Source of the DNA: Acidobacteriaceae bacterium
GTDB lineage: Bacteria; Acidobacteriota; Terriglobia; Terriglobales; Acidobacteriaceae
Length of the DNA: 64,000 nt
Assembly (NCBI GenBank): GCA_027449545.1
Contig: DAIDLI010000155.1
Coordinates: 1 to 64,000, forward strand
Direction of reading: 5' to 3'
Shown here in pieces: positions 4,920-44,318 of this stretch; positions within the stretch are counted from its first letter, which is position 1, and every line of letters begins with the position of its first letter. A model generated the notes under the pieces. The model had not been told where the DNA came from and did not search any database. It saw only the letters and a list, made by a program, of their open reading frames with translations. The translations under genes were made by a program, and so were the position numbers.

Positions 4920-4964
4920 CTCAGAAGCACCCTCCTGACAGAGGAAGACGAGCCCCAAAACAAA

Positions 4965-4997
4965 AAAGAGGCTGACCGGCGTCCGGTCAGCCTCTTT
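4965..4997 (+). terminator. Rho-independent terminator after the sulfatase gene
   Basis: A 15-bp perfect stem (4965-4979 pairing with 4983-4997) has a 3-nt loop and is followed by CTT. It lies about 45 bases after the sulfatase stop and has A-rich and T-rich flanks, so it could stop transcription from both directions between this gene and the convergent 5131-6168 gene. Confidence 0.8.
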
Positions 4998-5130
4998 CTT
5001 GTCGTAACTTATCGAAATGTGTCTGGATCCCTCTCAGGAGGCCACAACGGTACTCCTTTCTAAGGAACTGAGGAGATCACATTCGAATCAACAAGACGAT
5101 GGTTGCGGTGAGACATTGAATCTCCGCGAT

Positions 5131-6168
5131 TCAGCGCTCCTCTTCCTCGACCTGAGGAGTACAACTCTCCGCACGTTCTAACCATGCTTCCCTCCAAAGC
5201 AGGTATGCGCTCCGCGGACAAAACATGCGACACCTCCCGTACTGCCCTCGACAGACTACGGATTCGAGAACAACCGCCGGAGTCCTCATTGGCAGCATCT
5301 CTCCAGTGTCTTCGTTGATGATGCGTTCCACATGGCGAAGCACGCGGAAGGTGCGATTGGTATACGGGATCTGCTCAGGATCAAAATAAAGACCGCGATT
5401 CTTGCCTGCGCAATCCAGCGTATGGTCAATTTCACTGATCGATCGCACCCGTACGAGCTCTCCGGCCCTGAGGTTTAGATTGGAAACCGGTGTGCGCTCT
5501 CCGCATGGAATCGTTCCCATCCGGCGCGGAAAGGCGCCGCCCCGCCACAGAAACCGAAGGTGCTCATAGCAGGAACGCACCAGACGGGACCGCGGGAGGA
5601 GTCGTATCATCGCCATCCAGAAGGCGTGGGTTGTGCCGCACGCTAGCTCCCCCATCGTCAGGTTGCCTGATCGCAGATCTCGAACATACTGACGCATGTC
5701 CCACCAGCGCAGCGGATTGCTGGCTTCGCGGATCTGGGTCGCTTGACAGGAATACCGGACCACCCCGTTGTTCGCTATCAGGCAATAGTTGCTCAGCATG
5801 CGCGCAATCATCTCGCTTGGTTTGGGCGTCGCTTCCGTTTCCGCACAAGCCTCCGCCTGAATCTCTTGTGAAGCAGGACCATCGACGCTTCTCAGCCACG
5901 CCTTCTTCCAGAACAGAAGACAACCCGCCATGCACCCACCATGAGCCGTTCCTGAGCAGCGCGTGTCGAGGTGGACTACATCCTTGAGGTACCGCGCCTT
6001 ATGGGTCATGCTTTCGCACGTCTTGTGCGCACTCTTGCGGATTTGAAATCGGCGGCCACATAACTCAAGCATCTCCGGCATAAATGGCATTCCATCCAGT
6101 GCGCCCTGCGTATCCAGCGTGCACAGAATCTCCGCCGGTGTCTTCACCTCGACCCAATCACCCACTTT
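5131..6168 (-). CDS. Cysteine-rich protein of unknown function with internal duplication
   Basis: I do not recognise this family. The open frame runs up to 6351, but the first 61 codons look non-coding and the first repeat begins at the ATG at 6168 (GGGAG about 14 nt upstream), giving 345 aa; the start is uncertain. Residues 1-96 and 233-335 are copies of one module. Each opens with a [D/E]-[W/L]-V-x-V strand followed by an xxEI helix and TLD. Each closes with a C-x6/7-C-x3-C cluster (Cys72/80/84 and Cys306/313/317) and an identical AWL segment. About 135 residues, also rich in Cys and Trp, separate them. The paired cysteine clusters suggest metal or iron-sulfur binding or disulfides, but no catalytic motif is visible. 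There is no signal peptide. It is the last gene of the exopolysaccharide locus, downstream of a glycosyltransferase, so a role in polymer modification or its control is possible. Confidence 0.75.
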   Translation of the reverse strand, partial: KVGDWVEVKTPAEILCTLDTQGALDGMPFMPEMLELCGRRFQIRKSAHKTCESMTHKARYLKDVVHLDTRCSGTAHGGCMAGCLLFWKKAWLRSVDGPASQEIQAEACAETEATPKPSEMIARMLSNYCLIANNGVVRYSCQATQIREASNPLRWWDMRQYVRDLRSGNLTMGELACGTTHAFWMAMIRLLPRSRLVRSCYEHLRFLWRGGAFPRRMGTIPCGERTPVSNLNLRAGELVRVRSISEIDHTLDCAGKNRGLYFDPEQIPYTNRTFRVLRHVERIINEDTGEMLPMRTPAVVLESVVCRGQYGRCRMFCPRSAYLLWREAWLERAESCTPQVEEEER

Positions 6169-6395
6169 CATAGAAGTTGCAGTATCTCCCGTAGGCTTGC
6201 TCCATAGAGCCGGCGCTGCTCCCCGGCCTTTCTTATGCGCGTGTTCCACGCGCCCCCCACAAACCCTTGAACGTTTCCATGCGCAAAGCCATTCGCCAAT
6301 CCGAACCCTTGCGGGAACGATCATTGCCTCACATGAGAACTGCAATTGCATTCACCAGGCGCGGTGCTGGTAGATAACTCCTGTTCGGCTGTAGA

Positions 6396-7283
6396 TCAGA
6401 GAGGCTTCAACTGAGACTGCATCATGGCCGAAACTTGAGGCCAGAGCCCTCCCGTGTGCAAGCCGAAGCGGTCTTGAACTGCGTACCGCATCAGCGCAAG
6501 TACGCTGGCCGAGTACTCGCCATGCTTCCAGCAGTGCTTTGCATCGTTCAAGTCGATGGCCGCCATCGCACTTCTTCGCCTCCTCCCATCCTGGCGAAAG
6601 TGTTTTGTCACCACCCGCATACACGCCTCTCTCATGTGGGCAAAATCCCGGTGAACCTGCTGCGGATGCTGGCGGTACATGGCAACCGCGCCATCCATAT
6701 GTGTCATGTGCACCAGTTTTGCGCAGCGGATCCAGTAATCCCAATCTTCGGCGACGAGAAGTTCTTCATCGAATTCTCCCACTCGATCCAGAACTCTTCT
6801 TCGGATGAGCGGAACCAAAGGGTTGAACCAATTCCGGTAGCAGAGCGCATCCAGTGGGTGAAGGTTTCGAGGCAGCTCGGCGGAAAATATCGCTATCGGT
6901 TTCAAAGTTTCCGTCACAACCAGATAATCCCCATAGACAAAATCGACCTCCAGATGCTCTTCCATGAAGTTGATCTGACGCTGGATCTTGTCAGGAAGCA
7001 GAACGTCATCCGCATCCAGAAAGGAGACCAGGTCGCCGGAGCAGAGGCGCAGCCCAAGGTTGCGTGCCGAAGACGGCCCTCCATTCTCCTTGGCTGCCGT
7101 CTTCAGCGCTGGATACAGGATCAGAAGCTGTTGGAGAAGGTCGCGCGTATTGTCCGTCGATCCATCATCGACGACGATGCACTCCAAGTAGGGGTATGTT
7201 TGTGCGAAGGCGCTCGAGACGGCGTCCGGCAGGAAGCGTGCCGAGTTGTACGTCGGAATGATGATTGATACCAGCAATGGCAT
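6396..7283 (-). CDS. Glycosyltransferase family 2
   Basis: A 295-aa GT-A fold inverting glycosyltransferase, probably cytoplasmic and adding one sugar to the lipid-linked repeat unit. The N-terminus has the family start (VSIIIPTYNSARFL), the nucleotide-binding VVDDGSTDNT segment near residues 38-47 and the metal-binding FLDADD near residue 90. A later E-D-W (AEDWDYWIRC) matches the usual catalytic ED region. Length is normal for single-domain GT2 enzymes. It lies 75 bp after the flippase gene on the same strand, in the tail of the exopolysaccharide operon. Donor and acceptor cannot be assigned. Confidence 0.9.
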   Translation of the reverse strand: MPLLVSIIIPTYNSARFLPDAVSSAFAQTYPYLECIVVDDGSTDNTRDLLQQLLILYPALKTAAKENGGPSSARNLGLRLCSGDLVSFLDADDVLLPDKIQRQINFMEEHLEVDFVYGDYLVVTETLKPIAIFSAELPRNLHPLDALCYRNWFNPLVPLIRRRVLDRVGEFDEELLVAEDWDYWIRCAKLVHMTHMDGAVAMYRQHPQQVHRDFAHMREACMRVVTKHFRQDGRRRRSAMAAIDLNDAKHCWKHGEYSASVLALMRYAVQDRFGLHTGGLWPQVSAMMQSQLKPL

Positions 7284-7358
7284 GTTCTTCGAAGGCTCCC
7301 AGGCTCTACAGCAGGATGCGAGCAGGCTCCATAAATAGAAGGGAAAGGGAAGCAGCCT

Positions 7359-8933
7359 CTATTTTCGTACCTCCGATCCGTCTGGCGTCGGTGAACAGGA
7401 GGGCTGCCAGCCGCGGAAGGCGAGACTCACCGCTTTGACTGCATAGCGTGGAGAGTGGGCGGGTGCGAGAGCAACGGCTCCGCCGGCGAGAAGAAGCGCT
7501 CCCGATGTGAAGGCCAGTGGTGTGGCATGAAGACCGATTAAGGCCAGCACTCCTGGCAATACCGCACTGATGGCGATCCTTGCCAGATCGGGCCCTGACG
7601 TGCGGATCTGCATCTTCTGTGAGCAATAAAGAAGGGATGTAGATAGATCCAGAATCTGGCCCAGAAAGAACGCCAATGGAATGGCTTGGGTGCCGATCCG
7701 GGGTAAGAAGATACTTGCGGTCACATACCGTAGGCCGGCCCCAGTCAGTTGAAGCGCAAGCCATACACCGACTCGACCGCAGCCCAGGAGGGGAGCGCCC
7801 GCTACCCAGCAGGCCGCCTGCATCGAGTTTGCTACAAGCAGAAGCGGTAGAAGTTCAGAACTGGGCGTGAATTCGGCCGAGAACAGCAGTCGGACAACCG
7901 GGCGCTCCAGCAGACCCAGCAATCCCAGTCCCGTGGCAGAGATAGGAAGAATGACCCGATACAGTAAGTGAAGCCGTTGTGCGAGCACCTCCGGCTCATG
8001 CGAGGTGCTTATGCTTGCCAGCGAGAACACGCCGATGCTGCCCAGAGCGATTTGTGTAACCTGCGAGGAGAGCAAAAAGGCTGCCTGGTAAATACCGGCT
8101 TCTGAGAGACCAGCACACCGAATCAACTGTGCCCTGATCAGGACGTCCACCCAGCTATAGGAGAAACTCATGAGCAGGGAGGCTATGCCCAGCCACGCGA
8201 GCTGAAGTGCCGTGCTCCTCTGCCACGCGAAGCGAAGAGGATGGAAACCGAGCTGATAGCACCGTTGGCCGAGCAGTACCGCGAGTAGCAGGGAGCCCAG
8301 GGCAAACTGCAGGCATGCCCCCACTACTCCCAGATACGCAACCAAAGGAATCGCGGCGAGGGTGGCAAAAATGACCGCGATCGAACGCTTCGTCGCGATG
8401 CCTCGAACGTCGAGAATGCCTTGCAGGAAGCTCAGATAATTGTTACGGAGAGCTTCAATCGGTGCCATCAATACGATAAAGAGGAGTAGGGCAAGTTCCA
8501 GTCTTCGCGAAATCCCTAAATGAGCTAGCACCAGAGGACTTGCGGGCGCGAGAAACAGTGCGAAGCATGCCAGCAGGACGGAAAGGGTCACCGCCATCGT
8601 CAAGGTGCCCGCCACCGAGAGTTGCCGCTGACGCTCCTCCGCGGTTGTGGCCGCCGCAGTGTTGCGGCTCAGTCCTACAATCATCCCGAACTGAACGATC
8701 GTAAACGCGATGGTGGCGATTGCCAGGATCTGGGACCATTCTCCCATTCCACTGGTTTTGAGATAGACGGCGGCGACCTTGTTCCGGATGAGACCGGTGA
8801 GGGCCAGGACGACCTGTAAGCCGCCCAGTTCTGTCATCGCAACTAGGATGGCTTTCGAGTTGAGCGTTCCGAAAAAGTCAGAATGTTCCCGTCCCTGCCG
8901 CCTCGTTGCCGCGAACGGGAGGCTCAGCCGCAT
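7359..8933 (-). CDS. wzx: Wzx-like polysaccharide flippase (MOP superfamily)
   Basis: A 524-aa polytopic membrane protein of the MOP/polysaccharide-transport class, expected to flip undecaprenyl-linked repeat units across the inner membrane. Many hydrophobic helices (roughly 12-14) are spread along the chain, and the length matches Wzx proteins. The start at 8933 has GAGGTG just upstream and overlaps the end of fcl by 10 bp, which suggests translational coupling. Sequence signatures of Wzx are weak, so the call rests on topology, length and its place in a locus that also has Wzy-, Wzz- and Wza-like genes. Confidence 0.85.
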
Positions 8934-9904
8934 GGCACCTCGTTCGGCTGAAGTCGCTTTCCTGGGCCGTATGCGATCTGGCGATACCAGTCAATTGTTC
9001 TGCGAAGACCCGCCGCAAATGAGGTGGTAGCGCGAAATCCAAACTCCCTCTCTGCGCGGCAGGTGTCCAGGCAGCGGCGCGGCTGCCCGTTCGGCAGTCG
9101 GGTGTCCCATACAATTCGGCCGCGAAACCCCGTCATCTCTGCGATCATCCTGGCGAGTTCTGCGATCGAAATTTCCATTCCGCTCCCCAGGTTGACGGGA
9201 TCAGGCTTGTCGTAAAGTTGCGTCGCCAGCAGGATTCCTTCTGCGGCATCATCCACATACAGGAATTCCCGAGTGGGAGAACCATCCCCCCACAGCTCGA
9301 TACGCTCCGCTCCGCAATGCACAGCCTCCATGCACTTGCGAATCAATGCGGGAATTACATGCGAGGTCCGGAGGTCGAAGTTATCACCCGGGCCGTAGAG
9401 ATTCACTGGAAGCAGGAACACGGCGTTCATGCCGTACTCTTGGCAGTATGCCTGGCATTGCACGAGCAGCATCTTCTTGGCCAGTCCGTAGGGCGCATTG
9501 GTTTCTTCAGGGTAGCCATTCCACAGATCCTCTTCGCGAAAAGGCACGGGCGTGTACTTGGGATATGCGCAGATGGTTCCCAGAACCACCGTCTTCTCTA
9601 CCTGGTAGCGGCGAGCCGCCTCCAGCAATTGAATACCCATGATGGCGTTTTCATAGAAGAAGCGGCCGGGGCTGTCGCGATTTGCGCCGATGCCGCCTAC
9701 AACGGCAGCCAGATGAATCAGAATCTCCGGACGATGTTCATGAAAGAGCTGCTGAATATCTACCTCGCGGGTCAGGTCAAACTGCCGGTGCGCGGGAACT
9801 GCGATGCTCCTGCACTCCGCCTGCTCGAGCCGGCGAACTAGGTGTCTGCCGAGAAACCCGCTTCCGCCGGTTACGAGAATTCGCTTTTGACGTAGATCAA
9901 TCAC
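8924..9904 (-). CDS. fcl: GDP-L-fucose synthase
   Basis: A 326-aa extended short-chain dehydrogenase that epimerises and reduces GDP-4-keto-6-deoxy-mannose to GDP-L-fucose using NADPH. The Rossmann motif [11 protein letters not shown] is near residues 12-22 and the catalytic tyrosine-lysine pair appears as YGLAKK. The family region [11 protein letters not shown] is also present. The open frame continues to 10036, but the GTG at 9904 is preferred: it gives the normal N-terminus ([14 protein letters not shown]) and forms a GTGA overlap with the stop codon of gmd. The adjacent gmd makes its substrate, so the pair supplies GDP-L-fucose to the exopolysaccharide. Confidence 0.95.
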
Positions 9905-10938
9905 GCGAACCGCCCTTCTCCCAGTGCAAGTTGGTGTAGCGCGTCCTCTCCTCCTCTCAGTCGAGCTTCCAATTGCTCGACGTCGGATTGGACCATGACC
10001 CGGACCAGGTCCCTGAATCTCACTGTCGGCTGCCATCCCAACACGTTCATTGCGCGGCTGGGGTCGGCACGGAGATGGTCGACCTCGGCTGGGCGAAAAT
10101 AGCGCGGGTCCACGATGACAAACTCACGCCAATCCAGATCGGCTGCCTCAAAGGCAAGCTGCGCAAATTCCCGCACACTATGCGAATCGCCCGTTCCGAT
10201 GACATAATCCCCTGGCATCTCCTGTTGAAGCATGAGCCACATCGCCTGCACATAGTCCGGAGCATATCCCCAATCGCGCCGAGCCTCCAGATTGCCCAGA
10301 TACAGCTTCTTCTGGAGTCCCGACCGGATTTGGGCCACGGCGCGGGTGATCTTGCGCGTGACGAAGGTTTCTCCCCGGCGCGGCGACTCGTGATTAAAGA
10401 GGATCCCGCTGGAAGCGTGCATGCCATAGCTCTCGCGGTAATTGACTGTGATCTGGTGGGCAAAGACTTTGGCGCATGCATAGGGGCTGCGCGGGTGAAA
10501 CGGGGTCGTTTCGTTTTGCGGTGGGGAGGCGCTGCCAAACATCTCGCTCGAGGAGGCCTGGTAATAGCGGCATCTCACCCCGGTGCGTCGTATCGCCTCC
10601 AGCAGGCGCAAACTGCCGCAAGCCACTACGTCGGCCGTGAATTCAGGAACTTCAAAGCTAACCTTCACATGGCTTTGCGCACCCAGGTTGTACACCTCAT
10701 CGGGGCGCAGATCGTAAAGAATGGCGGCGAGCGAACTCCCATCAGTCAAGTCGGCATAATGAAGAAAGAAGCGGGTGTTCGCTTCGTGCGGATCTGCATA
10801 GAGATGATCGATCCGTTCCGTATTGACACTTGACGAACGCCGTTTGAGACCGTGTACCTCATAGCCCAGCGAAAGCAGGAGTTCGGCAAGATAAGAGCCG
10901 TCTTGTCCCGTGCATCCGGTGATCAATGCCTTTGTCAT
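9901..10938 (-). CDS. gmd: GDP-mannose 4,6-dehydratase
   Basis: A 345-aa extended SDR that converts GDP-D-mannose to GDP-4-keto-6-deoxy-D-mannose, the first step to GDP-L-fucose or GDP-rhamnose. The N-terminal motif is [15 protein letters not shown], the active site is YACAK within a PRSPYACAK segment, and the family sequence [17 protein letters not shown] is intact. The ATG at 10938 has GGAG 7 nt upstream; the open frame extends to 11244 but that extension has no family similarity. It overlaps fcl by four bases, so the two are translationally coupled. About 200 bp separate it from the upstream WecA-like gene. GDP-mannose must come from genes outside this window. Confidence 0.96.
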
Positions 10939-11140
10939 GACGTTTCTCCAAGACTGTGAAGCCGCCCGGTACAGAGCCAAAGATACCGCGCTGCCGCGGC
11001 TTCCATTCAATCTCCCCTGCGACATGGATCCGTTCTGCTCAGCACCAGCTGAACTTCGGCTAGGGAACGTGGTCGCGGCCCATCGCGCTCGGTAGGTGAA
11101 GTGGGAAGCTGCGGACCCGCTTACGTGGATAGACGAGCGG

Positions 11141-12232
11141 CTAGGAAAGGGCTCGCACCTGCGGATCTTTCTGGGCCGTCTGCACGGCAGCCGCTTCGCG
11201 CTGACCGGCCAGCGCCACATGGAACTTACGACGGCTGCGGGCAATGGTCGCTCCAGGCATACTTACCGGCAGCCGTGCCAAATAACTGCCAAAGACAGCA
11301 AAGAGCGCAACGAATCCGGCAAGGGCTGGAAGAAACCACCTCGGGTGCATATAGGTCAGTGGGCCGAACGTAGCACATCCCGCCGCGACGGCCCACAGCG
11401 ACCACACGGCATTGCGTTCTGTCATTCCAGCCGCAACCAGTCGGTGAGAGCTATGGTCGCGCCCTCCAACTGAAATCGGCCTGCCGGCCCGCTTGCGCAG
11501 AAGGGATACCAGCACGGAATCGAATAAGGGGTATAAGAACGCCATCAACGCGCTCGCACCCTCGATCCAGCGTGTGGAGGTGGAAACGGGATCAATGGCA
11601 AGCGCGGCGAGAGTAAAACCGAGAAAGAGGCTGCCACAATCACCCAAAAAGATGCGCGCGGGCTTGTGATTAAAGAACAAAAAGCCTGCGCACGCCCCAG
11701 CGACCACAGCCAGCAGGATCGCTCGTTCTCCATCGCCCTTCAGCAGGGTGAGGACGATTCCGGCGATTGCGGCGATCGTCGCCACCCCTCCGCACAGTCC
11801 ATCCATGTTGTCGATCAGGTTGAATGCATTCGTGACCCCGATCAGCCACGCTACGCTCAGCCCGGCATTCACTACCGGCCACGGAGAAACAGAGAACATC
11901 AGACCGCTCGTGACCAGATATATCGCGGGTAAGGCCTGCCCGATCAGCTTGGCAAGTGGCGGAAGCTCGAGCCGATCGTCCACAAAGCCGACCAGCGCGA
12001 TCCACGCCGCGCAAATCGCCAGCCGCGTTGATTCAGCCTCAGCAAACGCCAGAAAGCAGAGAGCCGAGGCCAGCACGATCCCTACGCCTCCGGTGTTCGG
12101 CGTGGCTGAGGTGTGCCAGCGGTCCGGGCGGGGCTGTGCTTGCAGACGAAGCTTGCTGCTCCAGCGCATGAGTGGATAGCAAGCGGATGCGCTCAACGCT
12201 GCTGCACAAACCATTGGCGTTAGGAATTGCAC
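11141..12232 (-). CDS. Undecaprenyl-phosphate sugar-1-phosphate transferase, WecA/MraY family
   Basis: A 363-aa polytopic membrane enzyme of the PNPT family, expected to start the repeat unit by moving a sugar-1-phosphate (often GlcNAc-1-P) from its UDP donor to undecaprenyl phosphate. The family aspartates are visible in [22 protein letters not shown] and [13 protein letters not shown], and the cytoplasmic histidine loop reads [11 protein letters not shown]. Around ten hydrophobic helices are present. The start is taken as the GTG at 12232, with GGGAGGAG just upstream and only 14 bp after the epimerase stop; the in-frame extension to 12298 is less likely. With the WecG/TagA-type enzyme at 18134-18931 it would build the first disaccharide. 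Confidence 0.9.
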
Positions 12233-12246
12233 GATGCGCTCCTCCC

Positions 12247-13272
12247 TCAGGCGTGCTCCAGAATCGCCTCCGGTGCAGATGTGGCCGCGGCTGTGCACGA
12301 CGCCACTGCTTCGCGGGCAGTCATCTCCTGTGCGACCGCATCAATAATCGCCGGCAGCGGGGTGTGGGGACGGAAGCCTACCAGGCGCTCCAATTTCGCA
12401 ACCGACGGAATCCTGCGGAGCATATCTTCGAACCCCTCGCCGTAGGCATCTTTGTAGGGAATGAAGACGATTTCGGAGCTGGACCCCAACTGCGCCCTTA
12501 CCTGTCCCGCCAGGCCTCCGATGCTGATTTCCTGGTCATTGCCAATGTTGATGATTTCGCCTGCGGTCTGAGGACTCTTCGCGATTCGTGCCAGAGCTTC
12601 CACCACGTCTAGCACGTAACCAAAGCACCGGCGCTGCTTGCCATCTCCAAAAACTGTGATCGGTTCATGCAGCAGTGCCTGCCGCACAAAGGTGGGCAGA
12701 ACCATTCCGTAGCGCGCGGTCTGGCGGGGACCGACCGTGTTAAAAAGTCGAATCACCGTGACCGGCACATGCTTCTCGTAAAAGTAGGCCAATCCTAGGA
12801 ACTCGTCGAGCGCCTTCGAGCAGGCGTAGCTCCAGCGGCCAATGCTCGTTGGGCCCATCACCAGGTCGTCCTCTTCACGGAAAGGAACTTTGGCACTCTT
12901 CCCGTACACCTCGGATGTGGAGGCGATGACGACACGCTTCCCCTTCTTTGCAGCGGCATTCAGCACCACCTCGGTCCCATGAATGTTCGTCTCGATTGTC
13001 CGTACGGGGCTGTCTACGACAAGACGGACGCCCACCGCCGCAGCCAGATGGAACACCAGATCGCATCCGTCGATGAGCTCCGAGACCAATGGAGCATTGA
13101 ATACGGTGTCGATCGTGTAATCGAAGGTAGGGCACCCCTTCAGGTGAGCGATGTTCTCGAATGATCCTGTTGACAGGTCGTCGATCACCGACACCGTCCA
13201 ACCTTCGCGGAGGCAGCGCTCTGCGAGGTGGGATCCAATGAAGCCGGCGCCGCCCGTAATCAGAATTCTCAT
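12247..13272 (-). CDS. NAD-dependent nucleotide-sugar epimerase/dehydratase
   Basis: A 341-aa extended SDR that probably acts on a UDP-sugar. The NAD-binding motif GGAGFIGSHL is at the N-terminus and the catalytic pair is in WSYACSKALDE. The middle resembles UDP-glucose 4-epimerase and UDP-glucuronate decarboxylase relatives (a TSEVYG motif and a GPRQTARYGMVLP loop). The ATG at 13272 has AGGAGG 8 nt upstream. It sits just ahead of the WecA-like gene, so it probably supplies the exopolysaccharide donor pool. The exact reaction is not resolved. Confidence 0.88.
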   Translation of the reverse strand: MRILITGGAGFIGSHLAERCLREGWTVSVIDDLSTGSFENIAHLKGCPTFDYTIDTVFNAPLVSELIDGCDLVFHLAAAVGVRLVVDSPVRTIETNIHGTEVVLNAAAKKGKRVVIASTSEVYGKSAKVPFREEDDLVMGPTSIGRWSYACSKALDEFLGLAYFYEKHVPVTVIRLFNTVGPRQTARYGMVLPTFVRQALLHEPITVFGDGKQRRCFGYVLDVVEALARIAKSPQTAGEIINIGNDQEISIGGLAGQVRAQLGSSSEIVFIPYKDAYGEGFEDMLRRIPSVAKLERLVGFRPHTPLPAIIDAVAQEMTAREAVASCTAAATSAPEAILEHA

Positions 13273-13359
13273 TGTTGTATCCTCCTGGGGCCTGCTTATT
13301 TGCTGCCCCGCCTGCTGGCTGGAGCGGCGGGGCGGGGTGTTCCTCACATGCGGCGCACC

Positions 13360-14502
13360 CTACAATTCCCCGGTGCTGGCCGATTCTCTCCGCAGCGGCT
13401 GGCGCGCCTCCACAGGCAATGGCTTCGAAGCACGTGCCAAATTACGCTGTAGAATCCGATTTCGCCATCGCGCGGCAGGAAGTTCGATAAGATGTCGCGA
13501 GAGCTCGCCCAAGGCGACGGTGATTGTGAACGTGAGCGCCAGCGTGGCCACGGCGTTCTGCGTGATCCAGGTCTGTACCGCAAACATCACGGTGTAATGG
13601 AAGACGTAAAGGGCATAGGACAGATCGCCGATCGTGACAAGAAACCGGCAATTGAGCCACCGCGTGACATACGCATCGGGATAGCGCACCACATAGAAAA
13701 AGATCGGAGCGAGAGCTACGCCCTGAATGGAGTAGCGTGCTGTTTGACGAAAGAACTCATCCCGGGCCGCAATCGAAATAAGCAGGATGACAAGGGCAAC
13801 CAGCGCCGCCACCGCGCACAGTCGCCTGCTGAGTTTAGGAAAAGAGTCAATTGCAGGGTTCGCGGCAATGGCCATGATGGCTCCGAACAGTATCGAATCC
13901 AGCCGCGTGTCGGTTCCGGTATAGACGCGATTCCAATTCGCCTGCAAGGGACCCATCATCACGACCCGCCATACAAGCGCCGCCACGCAGGCGCCACCCA
14001 GCCACATTGCCTGCCGGTTTTGTGAGAGTCCTGATCTTTGCAGCCCCAGATAGAGCACCGGAAAAAGAAGATAAAAGTGCTCCTCCACTGCGAGCGACCA
14101 CAAAGGAGATAGGCCGAGAGGAATCGTCAGGCCATGAACCTGTTCCGCATAGTTGGTTAAGAAGAGCTGAATGGCCGCAAAGCCGCGCCATTGCAAAGGT
14201 GCATGTAGAATCCCAATCCAGGCCGCGACGAAGGCCAGCGCCATCGCACAGTAAACGGGCGGAAGGATCCGAAATGCGCGCCGAATGTAGAACCGCCGAA
14301 TGGAAAGATCACCACTGCGGATCCACTCCCGGCGCAGCAGGGTTGTAATCAAATAGCCGCTCAGAAAGAAAAATACCGTTACACCAAACCCGTTGGGGAC
14401 CCACGTCAAGCCGCAGTGGCCGCACAGCACCAGAAAAAACGCGCCGGCGCGAATGCCATCAAGACCCGCAATTCTCTCGTTTCTGGACAGGCCTGTGCTC
14501 AT
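13360..14502 (-). CDS. Membrane acyltransferase, family 3 (OafA-like)
   Basis: A 380-aa polytopic membrane protein of the acyltransferase-3 family, which O-acetylates or otherwise acylates polysaccharides and lipids. The N-terminal GLDGIRA segment is followed by the conserved histidine (LCGHCG) and the FFFLSGYLITTLL membrane segment. An RRFYIRRAFRILPPVY motif follows. About ten membrane helices are predicted by eye, and there is no C-terminal SGNH domain. It lies in the exopolysaccharide operon and so probably decorates the repeat unit. Confidence 0.92.
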   Translation of the reverse strand: MSTGLSRNERIAGLDGIRAGAFFLVLCGHCGLTWVPNGFGVTVFFFLSGYLITTLLRREWIRSGDLSIRRFYIRRAFRILPPVYCAMALAFVAAWIGILHAPLQWRGFAAIQLFLTNYAEQVHGLTIPLGLSPLWSLAVEEHFYLLFPVLYLGLQRSGLSQNRQAMWLGGACVAALVWRVVMMGPLQANWNRVYTGTDTRLDSILFGAIMAIAANPAIDSFPKLSRRLCAVAALVALVILLISIAARDEFFRQTARYSIQGVALAPIFFYVVRYPDAYVTRWLNCRFLVTIGDLSYALYVFHYTVMFAVQTWITQNAVATLALTFTITVALGELSRHLIELPAARWRNRILQRNLARASKPLPVEARQPLRRESASTGEL

Positions 14503-14656
14503 GGATCTACGAGAAAGGAACTCACTCAGATGTCGTGCACCTGGGTGTCAGGATCTTGTGGAATGCATCCAAGAAGAGAAGCAAGTCCGGCTGTAGCTCA
14601 TCCATGGCATCAGCCTCAAGTGGGCCTCGTCAGTCCTCTGTCAACCATGCATAGGG

Positions 14657-15838
14657 TCAGTTCTCCGGCTGTTGCGTGCTATCCGCGTGGAGCGGGCATG
14701 TGATTTGCCCCGACGTAGCGGCCGGCTTCCGCAGGTCGCCAGCAGAGTCGAAAGGCCGCAGCGAATCGGCGTGGGCCGCCGGCAATCGTTGCTGCCGTTT
14801 CCATCGGGCGCTCGCCTGCCAGCGCAAAAGTCCCCATTTGCGTAGCGCGCCGCTCCATGTGCCCGGCCGCGAAATCATTGCGCCCCAGTAGAGTAGGTAT
14901 TCTCCGAAATGGATTCTGGCGCCTAATTGCAATAGCCAATGCAACTCCTCTCGGACCTGAGTTGCCTCCCCGAGGAATGCCAGCGCCCGCAGCCGTCTCC
15001 GAGTCGCTCTGACCCGCATCTCGAGACTCGCCCTAGGGCCCGCTCGCAGGCAATAGTGTCCTAATACTGCACGATCAAAGGCGGATGCATCGGCAATAAA
15101 TCGGTAAATATTCATGATTTCGCGCGGACGCGTCGCTGAGTTGCTGGAGAGCCGATAGGATCCGAACTCCATGGGGAGGCACAGACAAGTACCCTGGCGG
15201 CTTGCTTCCACCCACAGAGGTGCATCGCCGAAGGGATAGAGGCCCGGCTTGCACAGTGGCGACTCTTTCAGCGCAGTCTGCGCCAGGCCAGTGCGCAAGC
15301 ATACCGTCACCGTCTTCACCTTTCCCGCCAGGATTTCGTCCAGCCCGAACTGGTAAACCCCATGGTTCGGGAGTCTCAGCACATTCGAGATCAGGACGGC
15401 TCCCTCTTCGGAGATAATTCTCCAACTACTACAGACCAGGGCAATCCTTGCATCGCTCTCCAAAAGACGTACCTGGGCCTGCAGCTTGTCAGGTCGGTGC
15501 CAGCAGTCGTCTCCCTCACAGAATGCAAGGTATCGTCCGCGAGCGGCATTCAGAATGCGCGCGTCATTCTCGTGCATCCCCACATTCCGGTCTGCCGTGA
15601 TAACCCTGACTAGGTGCGGGTGGGAACGCCAATACTCCAGCGCGATGGCTCGGCTGCCGTCCGTGGAGGCGTCTTCGCCAATGATCAACTCGAAGGGAAA
15701 ATCGGTTTGCTGTGCCAGGACCCCTTCGATCGCATCGCGGAGATAGCGCTCGTGGTTATAGGTCGGCATTGCGACCGTCACCAACGGTTCGGAGGGAAGG
15801 TGGTCCCAGTCCGAATGCTCAATATAAGCCTGCGCCAT
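14657..15838 (-). CDS. Glycosyltransferase family 2
   Basis: A 393-aa GT-A enzyme. The N-terminus reads TVAMPTYNHERYLRDAI, with IIGEDASTDGS as the nucleotide-binding acidic loop and CEGDDCW as the metal-binding motif, a pattern typical of bacterial GT2 enzymes in capsule loci. The start at 15838 has AGAGGA a few bases upstream. The C-terminal ~120 residues are Arg-rich and amphipathic, which could support membrane association. It is flanked by the acyltransferase and WbqC genes. Sugar specificity is unknown. Confidence 0.9.
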   Translation of the reverse strand: MAQAYIEHSDWDHLPSEPLVTVAMPTYNHERYLRDAIEGVLAQQTDFPFELIIGEDASTDGSRAIALEYWRSHPHLVRVITADRNVGMHENDARILNAARGRYLAFCEGDDCWHRPDKLQAQVRLLESDARIALVCSSWRIISEEGAVLISNVLRLPNHGVYQFGLDEILAGKVKTVTVCLRTGLAQTALKESPLCKPGLYPFGDAPLWVEASRQGTCLCLPMEFGSYRLSSNSATRPREIMNIYRFIADASAFDRAVLGHYCLRAGPRASLEMRVRATRRRLRALAFLGEATQVREELHWLLQLGARIHFGEYLLYWGAMISRPGTWSGALRKWGLLRWQASARWKRQQRLPAAHADSLRPFDSAGDLRKPAATSGQITCPLHADSTQQPEN

Positions 15839-16017
15839 GCGTCCTCTTTTGGGTGGTGCCGTCCGAAATGACCCGGACCGGCGTAATCACCCCATTGCTA
15901 CCGCGACAGCAGCGTGAACGATGACAAGCGGAATGTCGCGCGCGGCTACCGATCTTGCACGAGGTGTTGGTGAGCGTTCCAGGCGCGTCTGACAACCAAC
16001 TGGAGTTCCATGCGCAG

Positions 16018-16770
16018 TTAAAAGCGGAATGCTCCGGCAAACTCCGCCTCTGCGCGTTCCTCGGCTGCGACTTTGACACCGTCCAGGTGCGCCCTAATGG
16101 CAGAAGGGGATTCCCACATCAGCGCATCCAGCACTGATAGCTTGGGCACATAGGTGAAACCGGGACAGTCATACCGGAACTCGAAGTCTTCTTGAATATG
16201 CAGCCGGATCTCGTGCTCTGAGAATCGGTTGGGATCGTAGAGGGCTGCTCCGCCGGGAGGGTTAAGGTACTCCGTGGCTCCCGCTGCCTCTGCGATTCTC
16301 AGTGCCCAGTCGGCTGCTGTTTCCACGGGCCCTAAATTCAGGTTCAGTTCAGAAAAGATCTCTGGCGTCCATCTGATTCCAAGGTAATCGCAAACCTTTC
16401 CAAGGCAGCGCACATTGAGTCGCGAAAGATTGCGTTCGCCGTCGCTAAAGCAGTCTTCAAGCAGATCCATCGTCTGCCAGTAATAGGGCGCTCGTCCGCG
16501 GTAGGGCGTGAACTGATGCACGATCTTACGCCGCCAATCGGGTGCTTCCACTGCCTCAATCTGATGGATCGGTGTTTCCCGCGGATGCTTCTTCACGGGC
16601 ACCGTGATGTACTGCCACCCCCCGCCCGGATGCAGGATGCGGTTGCGGTTGACCCAGCCTTCGCGCATATATTGTGGGCTATCGAACACGATCCAGCGTT
16701 CGCAACGGTTCATCAGGTCGAAATACCCGAGATAGGGAAAGAAATATGGCTGCATGACTCCTAGAATCAT
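16018..16770 (-). CDS. WbqC family protein
   Basis: A 250-aa protein matching the WbqC-like family seen in O-antigen and capsule loci. The diagnostic N-terminus QPYFFPYLGYFDLM is present, followed by WIVFDSPQYMREGWVNRNR and a central W-I-T-V-like strand with a lysine-rich loop. WbqC proteins are linked with making acylated or amino-acid-modified amino sugars, but the reaction is poorly defined. The start has AGGAGG close upstream. It lies 40 bp after the DegT aminotransferase gene, which supports a shared role in an amino-sugar branch. Confidence 0.88.
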   Translation of the reverse strand: MILGVMQPYFFPYLGYFDLMNRCERWIVFDSPQYMREGWVNRNRILHPGGGWQYITVPVKKHPRETPIHQIEAVEAPDWRRKIVHQFTPYRGRAPYYWQTMDLLEDCFSDGERNLSRLNVRCLGKVCDYLGIRWTPEIFSELNLNLGPVETAADWALRIAEAAGATEYLNPPGGAALYDPNRFSEHEIRLHIQEDFEFRYDCPGFTYVPKLSVLDALMWESPSAIRAHLDGVKVAAEERAEAEFAGAFRF

Positions 16771-16810
16771 GTGTTCCTCCTCTGCCCGACTGTGGAGACG
16801 GCAGGCGTCT

Positions 16811-18007
16811 TCAGGCGCTTAGGCCGACCTCCCGTCCCGTCAAGCGTTCTGCAGGCATATGTCTGTCGGGCCGATGATGACAGGACTCCACCATGTCACA
16901 GATTCTGTCCACATCGTCCATGCACAAGTCGCTATAGAGCGGCAGCGTAAGGATTCGATCAGCCACTGCTCGGGCAACAGGCAACCGTATACCAGCGAAC
17001 ATGGTTCGATAGCATGGGAAATCGGGAATAATAGGGTAGAAGTAGCGACGCGCCAGAACGTTATACACGCGTAGTTGTTCATAAAGCTGGTCGCGCCCCA
17101 TTCCGAACGTATCTGGCTCCACTTCGATGTTCATATAAGCGTAGTTCTGGGTAACTCCACTGCGTGCCGGTGCAGTCAGGCGGATTCCTGGGATGGATCC
17201 GAGCCGGGCTCGATAGTGTTCCGTAAGGGTTCGTCGAGCGTTGATCATTTCCTCTATTCGATCGAGCAAGAGCGCGCCCATAAGAGCCTGAAACTCCGTC
17301 ATCTTGGCGTTCGTCCCCGGCAACAGAACTTCAGTTTCATTCTCGAATCCAAAGTTCTTCAGGTAGTCCAGTCGGGCTTGGAGCGCCGGATCGCGAAAGA
17401 CGAGCATGCCTCCTTCGATCGAGTGGAATACCTTGGTTGCGTGAAAGCTGAACATGCTCATGTCCCCAAAGCTGCCGATCGGCTGGCCATCTACTTGCAC
17501 TCCGAAAGCGTGGGCGGCGTCGTAGAGGAGCTTCAACCCATGCTTGCGCGCGATTCTCTCCAGTGCCTTCAGTTGGCAGGGTTGACCATATACGTGAACG
17601 GCAAGGATGGCGCTGGTCCAGGGTGTAATTGCCGCTTCAACTAAGTCGGGATCGATCGAATAGTATTTCGGTTCAATGTCCACAAATACCGGCCGCAGCT
17701 TGTTCCAGAACAGCGCATGCGAGGTAGCCACGAAGGTAAAGGGCGTCGTTATGACATCACCAGAAATTCCGAGAGCCTGAAGCCCAATCTGCAATGCCAG
17801 TGTGCCATTCGTAAAGAGGGAGCCATGCGCGGCTCGGAGGTAGCGCAGCAAGTTTTGCCGAAATTGCTGCACAAGCGGACCATCGTTGGTAAGCCAGGCC
17901 CGTTCCCAAATGGTCTCGAGTCCGCGGCAGAAATCCTGGAGCGGCGGCAGTGCGGGGCGTGCCACGGTGATAGGCTTCGCAAACGGCTGAATTGGGCGGA
18001 TCATCAA
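16811..18007 (-). CDS. DegT/DnrJ/EryC1/StrS sugar aminotransferase
   Basis: A 398-aa PLP-dependent aminotransferase that replaces a sugar keto group with an amino group on a nucleotide-activated sugar. The PLP lysine lies in FHATKVFHSIEGG, the hallmark of the family, and the N-terminal FTNGTLALQIGLQALGI segment also fits. Two Met codons (18007 and 18004) are possible starts. It shares a strand and neighbourhood with a Gfo/Idh/MocA oxidoreductase (19819-20871); in UDP-3-amino-sugar pathways such as WlbA/WlbC, enzymes of these two families act one after the other. That pairing is an inference from context. Confidence 0.92.
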   Translation of the reverse strand: MMIRPIQPFAKPITVARPALPPLQDFCRGLETIWERAWLTNDGPLVQQFRQNLLRYLRAAHGSLFTNGTLALQIGLQALGISGDVITTPFTFVATSHALFWNKLRPVFVDIEPKYYSIDPDLVEAAITPWTSAILAVHVYGQPCQLKALERIARKHGLKLLYDAAHAFGVQVDGQPIGSFGDMSMFSFHATKVFHSIEGGMLVFRDPALQARLDYLKNFGFENETEVLLPGTNAKMTEFQALMGALLLDRIEEMINARRTLTEHYRARLGSIPGIRLTAPARSGVTQNYAYMNIEVEPDTFGMGRDQLYEQLRVYNVLARRYFYPIIPDFPCYRTMFAGIRLPVARAVADRILTLPLYSDLCMDDVDRICDMVESCHHRPDRHMPAERLTGREVGLSA

Positions 18008-18133
18008 GCACCCCGAATCGTCAATGTAGATACCGCGTCAGGGCATTCGGACGAGTAGCGGCTCGCGCGTCGTAAGAAAGAAGGGTGAGCAGCAGAAGTT
18101 GAGGTCAGTGGCTTTCTTGCTATCGGACTGCGG

Positions 18134-18931
18134 TCAAGGAGAAGGCCATGTGCTCGGTGCTGATTCGCGGCGCCTCGTGCGGCACCCGAGCGATTCGCTC
18201 AAAAAGACAAAGCTCCGGTAGTTCCGTACCAGCATGCGAGGCTGATGGCACAGACGATGGAGCCATTCGAATCCTGCTCGCTGCAGCCAGAGGGGCGCGC
18301 GTGCCACTGTCCCGGCGTGGTAATCGAAGGCTGCGCCCACTCCCACCATCCACGGTGCCCGGATCCGCCCAAGGTGGGATGCAATCCAACGTTCCTGCTT
18401 GAGAAGTCCCAGCCCCACCCAAACGATGTCGCAGCCCGAGTCGTTGATCATCTTCACTTCCTGCTCGTCCTCCTCCAGGCTCGGGGCGCGGAAGGGCGGC
18501 GAGTAGGTCCCGACGGTCTGCATGTTCGGAAAGAGACGTTCGAGGTTCTGTTGTAGGGTTTTCGGTACTTCAGGCCTGCCACCGTAGAAGAAGTGCTTCC
18601 AGCCGCGCAGCGCACCGAATTCGCAAGCGCGCCACAAGAGCGTGGACCCATAGATGCGGCTTACCCTTACACGTTGCGCCCGTCCCGCCAGCACCACCCC
18701 CACTCCGTCACAGCAAGAGAAGGCGGCATTCTCAATATATTGGGCGTGATCGGCGTAACGCCGGGCGTAATACATGGACTCGGTATTGGTGATCACGATG
18801 TACTGTGGCCGGCGCTCGCTCCGGATGTTCCAGTCCATGGCCCGCAGCACTTCGCCCTCACTGCAAAGTGTGACAGGAATCCCGCAAATTCGTGCGCGAA
18901 CATCGTGACTGTGAGCGACCGGGATCATCAT
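18134..18931 (-). CDS. WecG/TagA/CpsF family glycosyltransferase (GT26)
   Basis: A 265-aa peripheral membrane glycosyltransferase of the GT26 family, which adds the second sugar (for example ManNAc or ManNAcA) to the undecaprenyl-PP-linked first sugar. Visible family features are an early VITNTESMYYARR segment, the DGVGVVLAGR motif, a HFFYGG motif, and late WVGLGLLKQERWI and GVGAAFDYHAGT blocks. It starts 9 bp after the preceding gene. In this locus it would act directly after the WecA-like enzyme encoded at 11141-12232. Confidence 0.93.
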   Translation of the reverse strand: MMIPVAHSHDVRARICGIPVTLCSEGEVLRAMDWNIRSERRPQYIVITNTESMYYARRYADHAQYIENAAFSCCDGVGVVLAGRAQRVRVSRIYGSTLLWRACEFGALRGWKHFFYGGRPEVPKTLQQNLERLFPNMQTVGTYSPPFRAPSLEEDEQEVKMINDSGCDIVWVGLGLLKQERWIASHLGRIRAPWMVGVGAAFDYHAGTVARAPLWLQRAGFEWLHRLCHQPRMLVRNYRSFVFLSESLGCRTRRRESAPSTWPSP

Positions 18932-18940
18932 GTCCCCTTT

Positions 18941-19822
18941 CTAAGCTGGAACCGCGACTGCCCGCTCTTGGAAATATCCCACCGTTTCCTCGATGTGAAG
19001 TTTCGAGGAAGCTCCAAAGAGAATTGCCTCAATGTTGCGGAAGCCGCGGACATAGGCAACTGCTTCTGCCGGCGTTACCGCTCCCGAGGCGAAGATAGAC
19101 ATCGCAACAAATCTCTGTCCTCCCTCCTGGATCAGGGCTTCGTAACTTGCGCGGGAGGGGTTCATGAGGTATCCGGACTTGTTAAAGCTGGCACAAAGCA
19201 GCGGACGCTCCACGCCACATGTGCGGAGATAGGACGCCAGTAAGGGTAAGTTCATCGTGATGAATCCAGCGTCAACGCCATGCTGCCGCCGCGCATAGCT
19301 GACGAACTCTTCAAAAGCGTTCCGCGCACCGAGTCCGAGCAGGAGATCGGTTACGATGTTTTGGAGAAAGATTGCTTCGACCTGGAGATCGTGAAACATG
19401 CGCAACTCGGCGTCGACGAGCAGGCGCATAATCGTGATCGGATCCTGCTGGAGAGCACCTCTCCCAGCATGCAACATCGCTCGGAGCGCCCCCGAGGAAG
19501 AGCCGTCGCCTCGCAGAACGTCCACCACAGCGCCCATGACGCCTTTATCCGCCACCAGATTCGCGTATTTGTGCGCATAGGGCATAGCTGGATAGAGCCG
19601 TATCCCGCGATATCGGTTGGGATGTTGGCGAAAATGATCACAGATCTGCTGCACTCGATCGTGGGTGGTGAACATGAAGTCGCGGATTCCAGCCTCGTAA
19701 GCGTGGTCAATCACATTGATCACGGAGTCGAGCTTGGAAAAGCGTTCCGAAAGGGCCTGCGCCTTCTCTTCCGACATGTGGTTAATGCCAAAAAACTGGT
19801 TATCTCCGAAGATGAGTTTCAT
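18941..19822 (-). CDS. Uncharacterised TIM-barrel-like protein in the polysaccharide locus
   Basis: A 293-aa soluble protein I cannot assign with confidence. The pattern of alternating strands and helices and the GIRDFMFTTHDRV, VEAIFLQNIVTDLL and ILFGASS segments resemble a beta/alpha barrel such as aldo-keto reductases or xylose-isomerase-like proteins. However, no clear cofactor or metal motif is visible. No signal peptide or membrane segment is seen. It overlaps the upstream oxidoreductase gene by four bases (ATGA) and is followed after 9 bp by WecG/TagA. Tight coupling to a sugar dehydrogenase suggests a step in nucleotide-sugar synthesis. Confidence 0.7.
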   Translation of the reverse strand: MKLIFGDNQFFGINHMSEEKAQALSERFSKLDSVINVIDHAYEAGIRDFMFTTHDRVQQICDHFRQHPNRYRGIRLYPAMPYAHKYANLVADKGVMGAVVDVLRGDGSSSGALRAMLHAGRGALQQDPITIMRLLVDAELRMFHDLQVEAIFLQNIVTDLLLGLGARNAFEEFVSYARRQHGVDAGFITMNLPLLASYLRTCGVERPLLCASFNKSGYLMNPSRASYEALIQEGGQRFVAMSIFASGAVTPAEAVAYVRGFRNIEAILFGASSKLHIEETVGYFQERAVAVPA

Positions 19823-20871
19823 CGCAATCTCGTCCTCTCTCCGGTGGCGCGAATTTGCTCAATCACCTTGTCTACCTCAGCAGCAGAAGCCAGGTCGCTC
19901 ACCGCGTCGGTATGCCTTAGAACGATGCTGTCAATGAAGGAATCAAGCTGCCGTGTGAACTCATTGCCCCGCACGTACATCCTCACAGGAGAGGCGATGT
20001 CGGGGATGTAGACCGTAGACCAATCCGTCGCGTAACCTTGCGTTGTGGCGGAGGTGCGGAAGACTTTGTAGGCGTGCTGGTCCGCGACAATCCGGCCCCT
20101 TTGCGTTTCAATATTCAAGCGGTACGCCGGCTTGCGGCAGGAGGGATCGCTCCAATTCACATGGAGCGTAGCGGTCAGGTCCTTATACGCCAGGAGCGCA
20201 TCCACGCGGTCTTCCACGTCTTCTGAAACGAGCGACTGCAAGGAGGCGCCAAGCACTCCTAGCGGAGGGCCCGCCAAAAAGTTGAGGAGGTCGATACCGT
20301 GACTGGCAATATCGCCGAGGCAGCCTCCGCCGTCGCTTTTGCGCGAACGCCAGCCATGCGCCGAACTGCGAACCACCATCGGTGAACGAATGTCGCAGGA
20401 GATATAGGTCGGTTTCCCCAATTCGCCGGAGTGGAGCAGCGAGCGTACGGCTGCAAAGATCTCGTTGAACCTGTTCACGTATCCAACCTGGGCGACGACC
20501 CCCTGCGCCTTCGCGGCTTGGACCAATGCGGCGCTCTCTGCCGCCGACATGCTCAGCGGCTTCTCGATGAAGGTGTGGATTCCTCTCTCCAGAGCGAGCA
20601 TGGCGATGGTGTAATGCGTTTGGGTTGGAGTAGCCACGATGAGAAAGTCCGGCGAGGTGGAGTGCAGGAGGTCGTCGATGCTGCGGTAGCAGGGGATCTC
20701 AAGGTTCTTCTCGACTGCCTTTGCAAAGCACGCCGATGTTTCAACCACCGCAAGGCTCGCAACCAGTGGATGGCCTCGCAAGATGGCCAGGTGCGTGAGG
20801 CCCATGCGTCCGAGCCCAACAATGGCGCCGCGCAGGAGTTGCGGCGCTGATTTGAATGTTGCGTCATCCAT
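19819..20871 (-). CDS. Gfo/Idh/MocA family sugar oxidoreductase
   Basis: A 350-aa NAD(P)-dependent dehydrogenase. The Rossmann motif is AIVGLGRMGLTHL near residues 16-28, and the catalytic lysine is in the family motif FIEKPLS near residue 100. A GGGCLGDIASHGIDLL block holds the usual C-terminal-domain histidine. WlbA-type members of the family oxidise C3 of UDP-N-acetyl-sugars before transamination. The DegT aminotransferase in the same locus makes that assignment plausible but not proven. The stop overlaps the next start as ATGA. Confidence 0.9.
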   Translation of the reverse strand: MDDATFKSAPQLLRGAIVGLGRMGLTHLAILRGHPLVASLAVVETSACFAKAVEKNLEIPCYRSIDDLLHSTSPDFLIVATPTQTHYTIAMLALERGIHTFIEKPLSMSAAESAALVQAAKAQGVVAQVGYVNRFNEIFAAVRSLLHSGELGKPTYISCDIRSPMVVRSSAHGWRSRKSDGGGCLGDIASHGIDLLNFLAGPPLGVLGASLQSLVSEDVEDRVDALLAYKDLTATLHVNWSDPSCRKPAYRLNIETQRGRIVADQHAYKVFRTSATTQGYATDWSTVYIPDIASPVRMYVRGNEFTRQLDSFIDSIVLRHTDAVSDLASAAEVDKVIEQIRATGERTRLR

Positions 20872-20943
20872 CGTTCATTCCCCATGCTCAGTGGCGGTTT
20901 CGAAGGGACGCCCAGGCCGGAATGCCGCGTCCAGCGCGGCAAC

Positions 20944-22074
20944 TTATCGTAGCTCCGGCTCACAATGCCAGCTCGGCTGGCAATAGCGTTGGTAGAGTGC
21001 GAGGTACGAATCCGCGGTCTGCTCGACCGTGTGCTTCCATAGCAGCGGTGCCCGTCTTTCCTGCAGTTCCGCAGCAGTCGCGGACGTCATCAACGCCGAC
21101 TCCAATGCGGAGGCCATTGCATCTGGCGTCGGCGAGGCGAAGAGACATCCGGGCATCCCACTGGCAAGCTCGTAGTGCTCGGGGATTGCCGAGAGCACGC
21201 AAGACAACCCTGCGCACAGCGCTTCCAGGACGCTCAGCGGCATTCCCTCGTGACGCGAGGTGCTGATGAACGCGTCGCTGGCGCTGAGGATCTGTGGCAT
21301 GTCTGCGCGGTTCCCAAGAAACCGAACCGAGCTCTCGATGCCTAGTTGGTGGGCCTGCCGTTGAAGCGGCTTTTGCAGTTCGCCCTCCCCGCATATCTGC
21401 AATTGCAATCCGGGTATCCTGCCTGAGCGGGTGAGCACGGCAACTGCATCGAGAGCGATGTGAAGGGCCTTTTGCGGGCATAGCCGTCCCACCGCCACCA
21501 CCACCCGCTGCTCGTGAGTGAATCCTAGTTGTTGGCGAATCGCATCTCGAGCGAGGCTGATGTTCGTATACTGGGCCTGCCGAATTCCATTCGGGATAAC
21601 GGTCTGCGATAGCGCAGTGAGTGGATTGACGCGGCGGGCAGACTCGGAGCAATAAACGACGTGCGCTCCCCGCGCAAGCCACGCCAGGATGCCGGAGCGC
21701 GGTTCAAAGGTGTTGTGGACGGTGATGACATGAACAAAGGAAGGCATGATGCAGCGCCGAACCAGTCCGCTGAGCGCGTCGGGCATGGGTAAGTGGGAGT
21801 GCACAACGTCGTAATGCCGGCGCTGTGCCAACGACCATAGACGCGCCATCGCCATCCATCCAGCGCTCCCGCGTTTACGGCCTAGAAAGAAAATGCCCAC
21901 CTGCGAGGCGCGCAACAGGTCGGTCCAATATGTCTCATGCGTTGTCCCACTCTGCCGGTCCAGGCAGATGGCGTCGACGTCATTTCCGCGTTTGGCCAGT
22001 TCCGAGCAAAGCGTCGCCATCACGGCCATGGATCCGCCGCAATCGAAGCTGTGGCTCACATGCGCAATTCTCAT
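20944..22074 (-). CDS. Glycosyltransferase family 4
   Basis: A 376-aa GT-B retaining glycosyltransferase. The N-terminus HVSHSFDCGGSMAVM is the usual acceptor-side glycine-rich loop. The C-terminal domain carries VVAVGRLCPQKALHIALDAV and the E-x7-E motif in SRHEGMPLSVLEAL, which binds the nucleotide-sugar. VIPNGI marks the domain linker. Length is standard. It lies between a GT2 gene and the oxidoreductase. Specificity is unknown. Confidence 0.93.
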   Translation of the reverse strand: MRIAHVSHSFDCGGSMAVMATLCSELAKRGNDVDAICLDRQSGTTHETYWTDLLRASQVGIFFLGRKRGSAGWMAMARLWSLAQRRHYDVVHSHLPMPDALSGLVRRCIMPSFVHVITVHNTFEPRSGILAWLARGAHVVYCSESARRVNPLTALSQTVIPNGIRQAQYTNISLARDAIRQQLGFTHEQRVVVAVGRLCPQKALHIALDAVAVLTRSGRIPGLQLQICGEGELQKPLQRQAHQLGIESSVRFLGNRADMPQILSASDAFISTSRHEGMPLSVLEALCAGLSCVLSAIPEHYELASGMPGCLFASPTPDAMASALESALMTSATAAELQERRAPLLWKHTVEQTADSYLALYQRYCQPSWHCEPELR

Positions 22075-22129
22075 CGAAAACCTGCCTTGGGCAGGGAAGC
22101 GCCCGGCACCCCCTCACAGGCCCGTTCGG

Positions 22130-23056: not shown

Positions 23057-23086
23057 TGTGGTTCTTTGTGCAGTGAAGATTGCTAT

Positions 23087-24349: not shown

Positions 24350-24439
24350 TGGGCTGGCGTAGGCAGGCAGGGCAACTGGTGGGCATGAGCTGCCTGGCGC
24401 GGTCGAGGCCAGGTCATGCCGCTTATCTCAAGGAACTGC

Positions 24440-25162: not shown

Positions 25163-25172
25163 GACGTGTTCC

Positions 25173-26459: not shown

Positions 26460-26470
26460 CTGCCCCTGTC

Positions 26471-27937: not shown

Positions 27938-27949
27938 GGTGTCCTCCGC

Positions 27950-28654: not shown

Positions 28655-29002
28655 TTCGATTTCCTTCCTGGGCCCGCACTCGCCAGATCGAGCCCCGTTT
28701 ACCGGTGTCGAAGTTGCCTGAAGCATTTCCTCGACCAGATCCCGTCGCGGTAGGTTCTGCGCACTTGACGGATAGAGCGCTTCCGTCCGCCCTTGACTCC
28801 CTGGAATGGCTCCGGGCGTAGCTTCGCCCTGTGAGGGACATGCCCTCATTCCCCACACCCCCACCGCCATCCAGTTCCTTCTGGTCTGACTGTGGTTCCA
28901 GCCCTGATCCCTTCCGCTGCGGCTCTCGGTTCAAGTCCTTCTCAGCCCTGCCGCCTAAGCGCTACCGCATCAGCCTTGCGCTCGCATTTCATCGGGACGT
29001 AT

Positions 29003-44293: not shown

Positions 44294-44318
44294 CTTCAGT
44301 CGTACTGCAAGGACATCC

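Follow-up and report, generated by a model that had tools for sequence, protein, structure and literature searches.

The window, i.e. the whole stretch of 64,000 nucleotides analysed here, contains at the end of a polysaccharide operon a gene for a protein that is built from two diverged copies of one module, each predicted to form an SH3-like barrel, and that carries a conserved loop of three cysteines and one histidine. The observation is sound and none of the searched libraries describes the family, although its fold is known in kind. A domain family bearing no name in these libraries is thereby defined, with a precise motif, a confidently predicted structure and a distinct gene context, and its range extends from Acidobacteriota to Actinomycetota. 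As the best, albeit tentative, explanation we propose that the protein is a cytoplasmic, metal-stapled twin-barrel adaptor that docks to another protein of the polymer assembly or export machinery.

The gene was located on the minus strand at 5131-6171 and encodes a two-module protein of 346 residues within an open frame of 5131-6351; the coordinates given by the sequence-only reading were correct, and the strand, on which it was silent, is minus. The ATG at 6171-6169 is the probable start, and most homologues align from about there. As had been supposed, the gene ends a polysaccharide operon (6396..28870, minus strand), which was confirmed by Pfam matches of the neighbours, with the reading as one operon being based on strand and spacing. 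It is the last gene of this cluster, which runs down from about 28870 and comprises Wza (27950), a Wzz-like protein (26471), Wzy (23087), WecG (18134), WbqC (16018), an acyltransferase (13360), a WecA-like transferase (11141), sugar-nucleotide enzymes, an NAD-dependent epimerase (8924), a Wzx-like flippase (7359) and GT2 (6396), the Pfam matches of the Wzz-like and Wzx-like genes being under the cut-offs. A further gene of 293 residues within the cluster (18941-19822, minus strand) adjoins WecG and had no Pfam match. No Rfam match was found in window positions 4800-7400, and a promoter and terminator scan of positions 4900-7400 gave no more than about the level of shuffled sequence.

The two copies were confirmed to be real and their limits were set at residues 1-99 (module 1, 5875..6171, minus strand) and 230-338 (module 2, 5158..5484, minus strand), separated by a linker of residues 100-229 (5485..5874, minus strand) that holds a C142-Q143 motif and a helical pair. 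Comparison of copy 1 with copy 2 of the window protein by BLASTP yielded an E-value of 5e-11 at 27% identity, and comparison of the profiles of copy 1 (55 rows) and copy 2 (56 rows) yielded about 1e-39 (5e-39 in global and 1e-40 in local comparison) over about 100 columns. Copy 2 of the window protein also matches copy 1 of many homologues and vice versa. The opening V-strand, the EI helix, the TLD segment and the final WL, which had been pointed out as shared, are largely kept in both copies. The module is an independent unit, and the three-cysteine loop is likely its ancestral state, because the loop is carried by divergent, lone-module and twin relatives alike. Among the divergent members, L048, L049 and L052 possess it in both modules, with Asn instead of His in copy 2 of L049; L126 and L127 are apparently single-module forms with the loop; and in L128 and L129, which come from the order of an actinomycete metagenome-assembled genome (MAG), two modules are present and the loop reads GC-x3-C or similar.

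Conservation was assessed in a table of 56 rows, from which L001 and L035 (the window itself), L003 (truncated), L058-L075 (repeat entries of the same genes), L038, L040, L050 and L053 (duplicates), L054 and L081 (of insufficient length or match strength) and L126-L132 (found later) were left out. In the loop of module 1, C72-x4-H77-x2-C80-x3-C84 (5920..5958, minus strand), C72, C80 and C84 are invariant in all 55 rows with module 1, taken from several phyla, and H77 is kept in 52 of 55. A conserved set of putative ligands for zinc or another metal is thus present. C142-Q143 (5743..5748, minus strand) likewise occurs in 55/55 rows having module 1, and also in L051, which is without module 1 and where the alignment is doubtful. 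C38 and C52 (6016..6018, minus strand) are each kept in 50 of the 55 rows, and the polar residues D20 and E33 (33/33 rows), R60 (54/55) and Q143 (55/55) are conserved as well. In module 2, C307 and C318 (5218..5253, minus strand), the counterparts of C72 and C80, are each present in 54 of 56 rows. The idea of paired cysteine clusters held for copy 1 and for these two residues, but not for C314, which is Cys in only 21/56 rows and was rejected as a member of a conserved cluster. The equal spacing of C-x7-C-x3-C and C-x6-C-x3-C is partly a coincidence: C318 aligns with C80, both being located 8 residues ahead of a conserved Trp, and not with C84, and C84 lacks a counterpart in module 2 of most members. 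The label 'CxxC-like' is wrong for copy 1, whose motif is C-x4-H-x2-C-x3-C.

Searches of Pfam, NCBIfam and PHROGs gave no family matching the window protein. Neither the protein nor the profiles of the family and of the module had a convincing match among the sequences of solved structures (best E 0.037, a dynein regulatory protein), phage records, PHROGs and viral contigs held no relative (57 pattern matches, 0 confirmed), and no description of such a family was found in the literature searched by peptide motif or by four accession or locus names. As judged from sequence, the family therefore has no description in any of the searched libraries. The sequence-only reading knew no described domain of such a layout, which stands insofar as no curated family was matched and does not stand with regard to the fold, which is that of a known SH3-like barrel; the search for a strong match of a known domain to the full protein or its modules returned only weak structural likenesses.

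The full protein was modelled with AlphaFold2 from 33 sequences with a pLDDT of 89.3 and a pTM of 0.86, and module 1 alone with values of 88.1 and 0.78. The predicted fold consists of two SH3-like barrels, a known kind and not a new one, and the cysteine loop (residues 72-84) sits between two barrel strands according to DSSP of the model. When module 1 was modelled alone instead of in the full protein, the pLDDT dropped from 90 to 66 for residues 51-60 and from 92 to 74 for residues 71-80, as if both segments faced the remainder of the protein. A Foldseek search with the full model placed the beta subunit of nitrile hydratase on top (E 1.2e-3), with Mind bomb at 0.06 and no match at E ≤ 0.001; with module 1 alone the best E-value was 0.044 for a ribosomal protein, followed closely by nitrile hydratase beta and Mind bomb. 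The full model also had no match at E 0.001 among viral predicted structures. VIA-align of the full model with the Mind bomb repeats gave a Z of 7.4 with an rmsd of 11.3 over 125 positions, and the comparison gave a Z of 7.3 for module 2 (rmsd 2.2 over 69) as well as for module 1 modelled alone (rmsd 2.2-2.3 over 67), while entries for ribosomal proteins, photosystem I chain E and nitrile hydratase followed at Z about 5 to 6; Z values under 8 may reflect a common arrangement. The barrels can be called SH3-like and known in kind, and with matches this weak no family is assignable.

The repeats of Mind bomb (Mib1), namely SH3_15 (PF18346) and Mib-HERC2 (PF06701), are tandem SH3-like barrels, the arrangement predicted here for the window protein, and match the model weakly in structure. 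SH3_15 was touched weakly by 5 of the 33 family members (best E 0.0021), and the window protein itself had no sequence match (0 Pfam families at E up to 1). The cysteine loop and the CQ linker characterise the window family and are not known to occur in Mind bomb. The C-terminal SH3-like barrel of nitrile hydratase beta appears alike in topology, with Foldseek E-values from 1.2e-3 upward; however, no Pfam or NCBIfam match to it was seen for the window protein or among the families listed for the 33 members, and in the window family, unlike in nitrile hydratase beta, the cysteines are within the barrel protein itself. The same broad fold with weak scores was found for further small barrels, namely ribosomal protein eL21, PsaE and ferredoxin:thioredoxin reductase chain B.

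The genomic context of the homologues was scanned with 33 seed proteins taken from the window, L055 and L023. The loci were divided into a large and a second group, which correspond to the two halves of a quick tree rooted at its midpoint (support 90, not starred) and are not proven clades, and were compared with control stretches, for which round positions were picked by hand in gene-bearing genomes. At least three polysaccharide genes were detected in 32/41 large-group loci, among which the window is not counted but L055 and L023 are (30/39 without these two), in 0/13 loci of the second group and in 1/20 controls, some loci being short due to contig ends. At least one such gene was detected by the seeds in 3/13 loci of the second group and 7/20 controls. 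Within 600 bases of the large-group genes an exporter was present in 13/41 loci, a glycosyltransferase in 13/41 and either of them in 23/41. A single exporter type as partner was rejected, as Wzx-like and ABC-type genes both occur; because export loci of either type carry the gene, the context does not point to one particular partner. A sugar-nucleotidyltransferase and a PIG-L deacetylase occurred together in 22 of the 41 loci, and the nucleotidyltransferase in 0/20 controls. Companions recurring in about half of the loci, e.g. at L055:3935-9948, are a sugar nucleotidyltransferase, a PIG-L deacetylase, a methyltransferase, RfbC, DUF4910 and an epimerase.

Beyond the seed scan, on which the counts for the large group and the controls rest, 20 selected neighbours, drawn from 9 of the 13 loci of the second group, were re-checked with Pfam, and polysaccharide genes were found to adjoin 3 of the 13 loci: in L083 a flippase overlaps the gene, and in L089 and L090 Wza is located nearby with Wzz/Wzc-like genes. 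As Pfam found genes that the seeds miss, the seed counts are lower bounds and at least 3/13 second-group loci are linked to polysaccharide genes. Other second-group neighbours are ambiguous (a TupA-like ATP-grasp protein in L086, two FemAB proteins in L088 and an FkbM methyltransferase in L026); further ones are an ammonium transporter and a P-II gene in L087, a sodium:solute symporter in L028 and DUF1304 in L031. A ScdA/hemerythrin-type neighbour was observed in two related second-group genomes, by Pfam at L084:9624-10400 and by sequence likeness at L085:9526-10272. The gene is also present on a plasmid of Mesorhizobium ciceri, where it immediately precedes a lipopolysaccharide biosynthesis gene and overlaps it by 4 bases, and on a Bosea conjugative plasmid, where its divergent neighbour is the sole annotated polysaccharide gene in an otherwise unrelated stretch. 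The hypothetical protein WP_024505408.1 of M. ciceri belongs to the same family and has a similar locus; no function or family name is given for it. Thus, homologues are often but not always in polysaccharide loci. The expected association was seen for the large group and not for the family as a whole, and the claim 'always' was rejected, because most second-group loci showed no polysaccharide gene.

On these grounds we favour, with due caution, the adaptor. Each barrel would go back to an ancestral module in which a metal-binding loop with three cysteines, C-D-G-x(4-8)-C-x3-C, lies between two strands. In members of the large group, one zinc ion is most probably bound in module 1 by C72, C80, C84 and either H77 or C142. 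Module 2 has lost one cysteine of the three, and the second site is probably completed by C52 from module 1, so that metal would staple both barrels together. The twin barrel would then dock, like the Mind bomb repeats, onto a polymer assembly or export protein at the inner face of the membrane. The docking proposal follows from the class of fold: in Mind bomb, an E3 ubiquitin ligase, the SH3-like repeats serve as substrate-recognition domains (PMC11701565). No signal peptide was visible by eye in homologues with the invariant cysteines. The membrane side is proposed because the linker helices appear to prefer interfaces, with a median of -4.3 kcal/mol in the large group versus -1.2 kcal/mol in the second group (p 0.004; 42 versus 13 rows, which are not independent), and because hydrophobic N-terminal stretches were seen by eye in L002 and L030. 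The groups showed no difference in the plain hydrophobicity (p 0.13) or the hydrophobic moment (p 0.48) of their linkers. If required for polymer assembly or export, the protein would be a component that is not known to figure in the usual Wzx/Wzy and ABC-type schemes.

The invariant polar residues and a flavoprotein fusion argue against a pure adaptor. In the Caulobacterales MAG of L029 (8729-10903), the twin module stands behind FAD_binding_3 (E 6.6e-12) in one open frame of 725 residues. It is possible, though somewhat less likely than the adaptor, that the protein has a metal or redox cofactor (an iron-sulphur or iron/zinc site) and, as an enzyme or electron carrier, modifies either a sugar precursor or the polymer as it grows. 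The invariance of the three loop cysteines and C142-Q143, together with the near invariance of R60 and the constancy of D20 and E33, is in agreement with this, the polar residues could point to catalysis, nitrile hydratase beta heads the Foldseek matches of the full model, and the paired nucleotidyltransferase and deacetylase genes in about half of the large-group loci fit as well. However, the fusion is a single case from one metagenome-assembled genome, 180 genomes of the order of L029, its own included, held no second family member, and no active-site family was matched. Small barrels are usually binding domains, which also counts against a cofactor enzyme. That flavoprotein was rejected as a general neighbour, as no other context locus has it. 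The more specific idea that the cysteine loop and the CQ linker of the twin barrel hold a metal or an iron-sulphur cluster and that this centre, together with a flavoprotein, acts on sugars, free or lipid-linked, while the polymer is assembled, which would constitute a new class of cofactor-bearing enzyme or electron carrier, is regarded as doubtful. That the protein is metal-binding or redox-active, as had been suggested, is likely; the polymer-modifying role suggested along with it was not supported by this analysis.

It is improbable that the cysteines instead serve as a thiol redox sensor regulating polymer synthesis, with a disulphide switch between C52, C307 and C318. The cysteine C52 does vary together with the set in module 2, which in most members has just two conserved cysteines: it was present in all 50 rows with the two-cysteine form (L077 being judged by eye as C-x10-C against the pattern of the script), in 0/3 rows with all three and in 0/2 with none. 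Yet three cysteines and a histidine in a loop of 13 residues resemble a metal site, and since the C52 pattern requires only two changes on the tree, the co-variation is a lead and not proof, also for the metal-stapled adaptor.

The gene is rare and patchy. Homologues were found in genome contigs at 32 loci, in 17 of 396 sampled genomes of its own phylum (Acidobacteriota) and in 2/60 near relatives, the own genome counted. In the phyla of L019, L023, L018 and L034 they were present in 3/398, 1/244, 1/246 and 4/246 genomes, each including its centre genome, with one of the four in the phylum of L034 being a weak match with stops. Further genome samples had a family member in 5/100 and 3/99 genomes, the order of L029 in 1/180, which is L029's own, and plasmids in 6 of 72,556 records. 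This patchiness, together with second-group loci such as L087 in which no polysaccharide gene was seen, would fit mere co-transfer on variable islands of a protein serving another cell function, but we consider this a poor explanation, given that independent loci from several phyla with differing neighbours still lie inside polysaccharide clusters, often on the same strand and close by, and that 3 of 13 second-group loci are also polysaccharide-linked.

The nearest relative, L003:3498-4148, is about 95% identical to the window protein over 175 residues, with 6 synonymous and 9 nonsynonymous codon differences. Its frame ends near codon 177, other sequence that looks like an insertion follows the stop, and the contig ends shortly after. 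In the window, a NusG-family protein (31355-31924, plus strand), perhaps a specialised antiterminator, adjoins the polysaccharide cluster on the opposite strand, and two adjacent proteins (41327-47228, plus strand), both glycoside hydrolase 106-like and 988 residues long, apparently originated from a tandem duplication.
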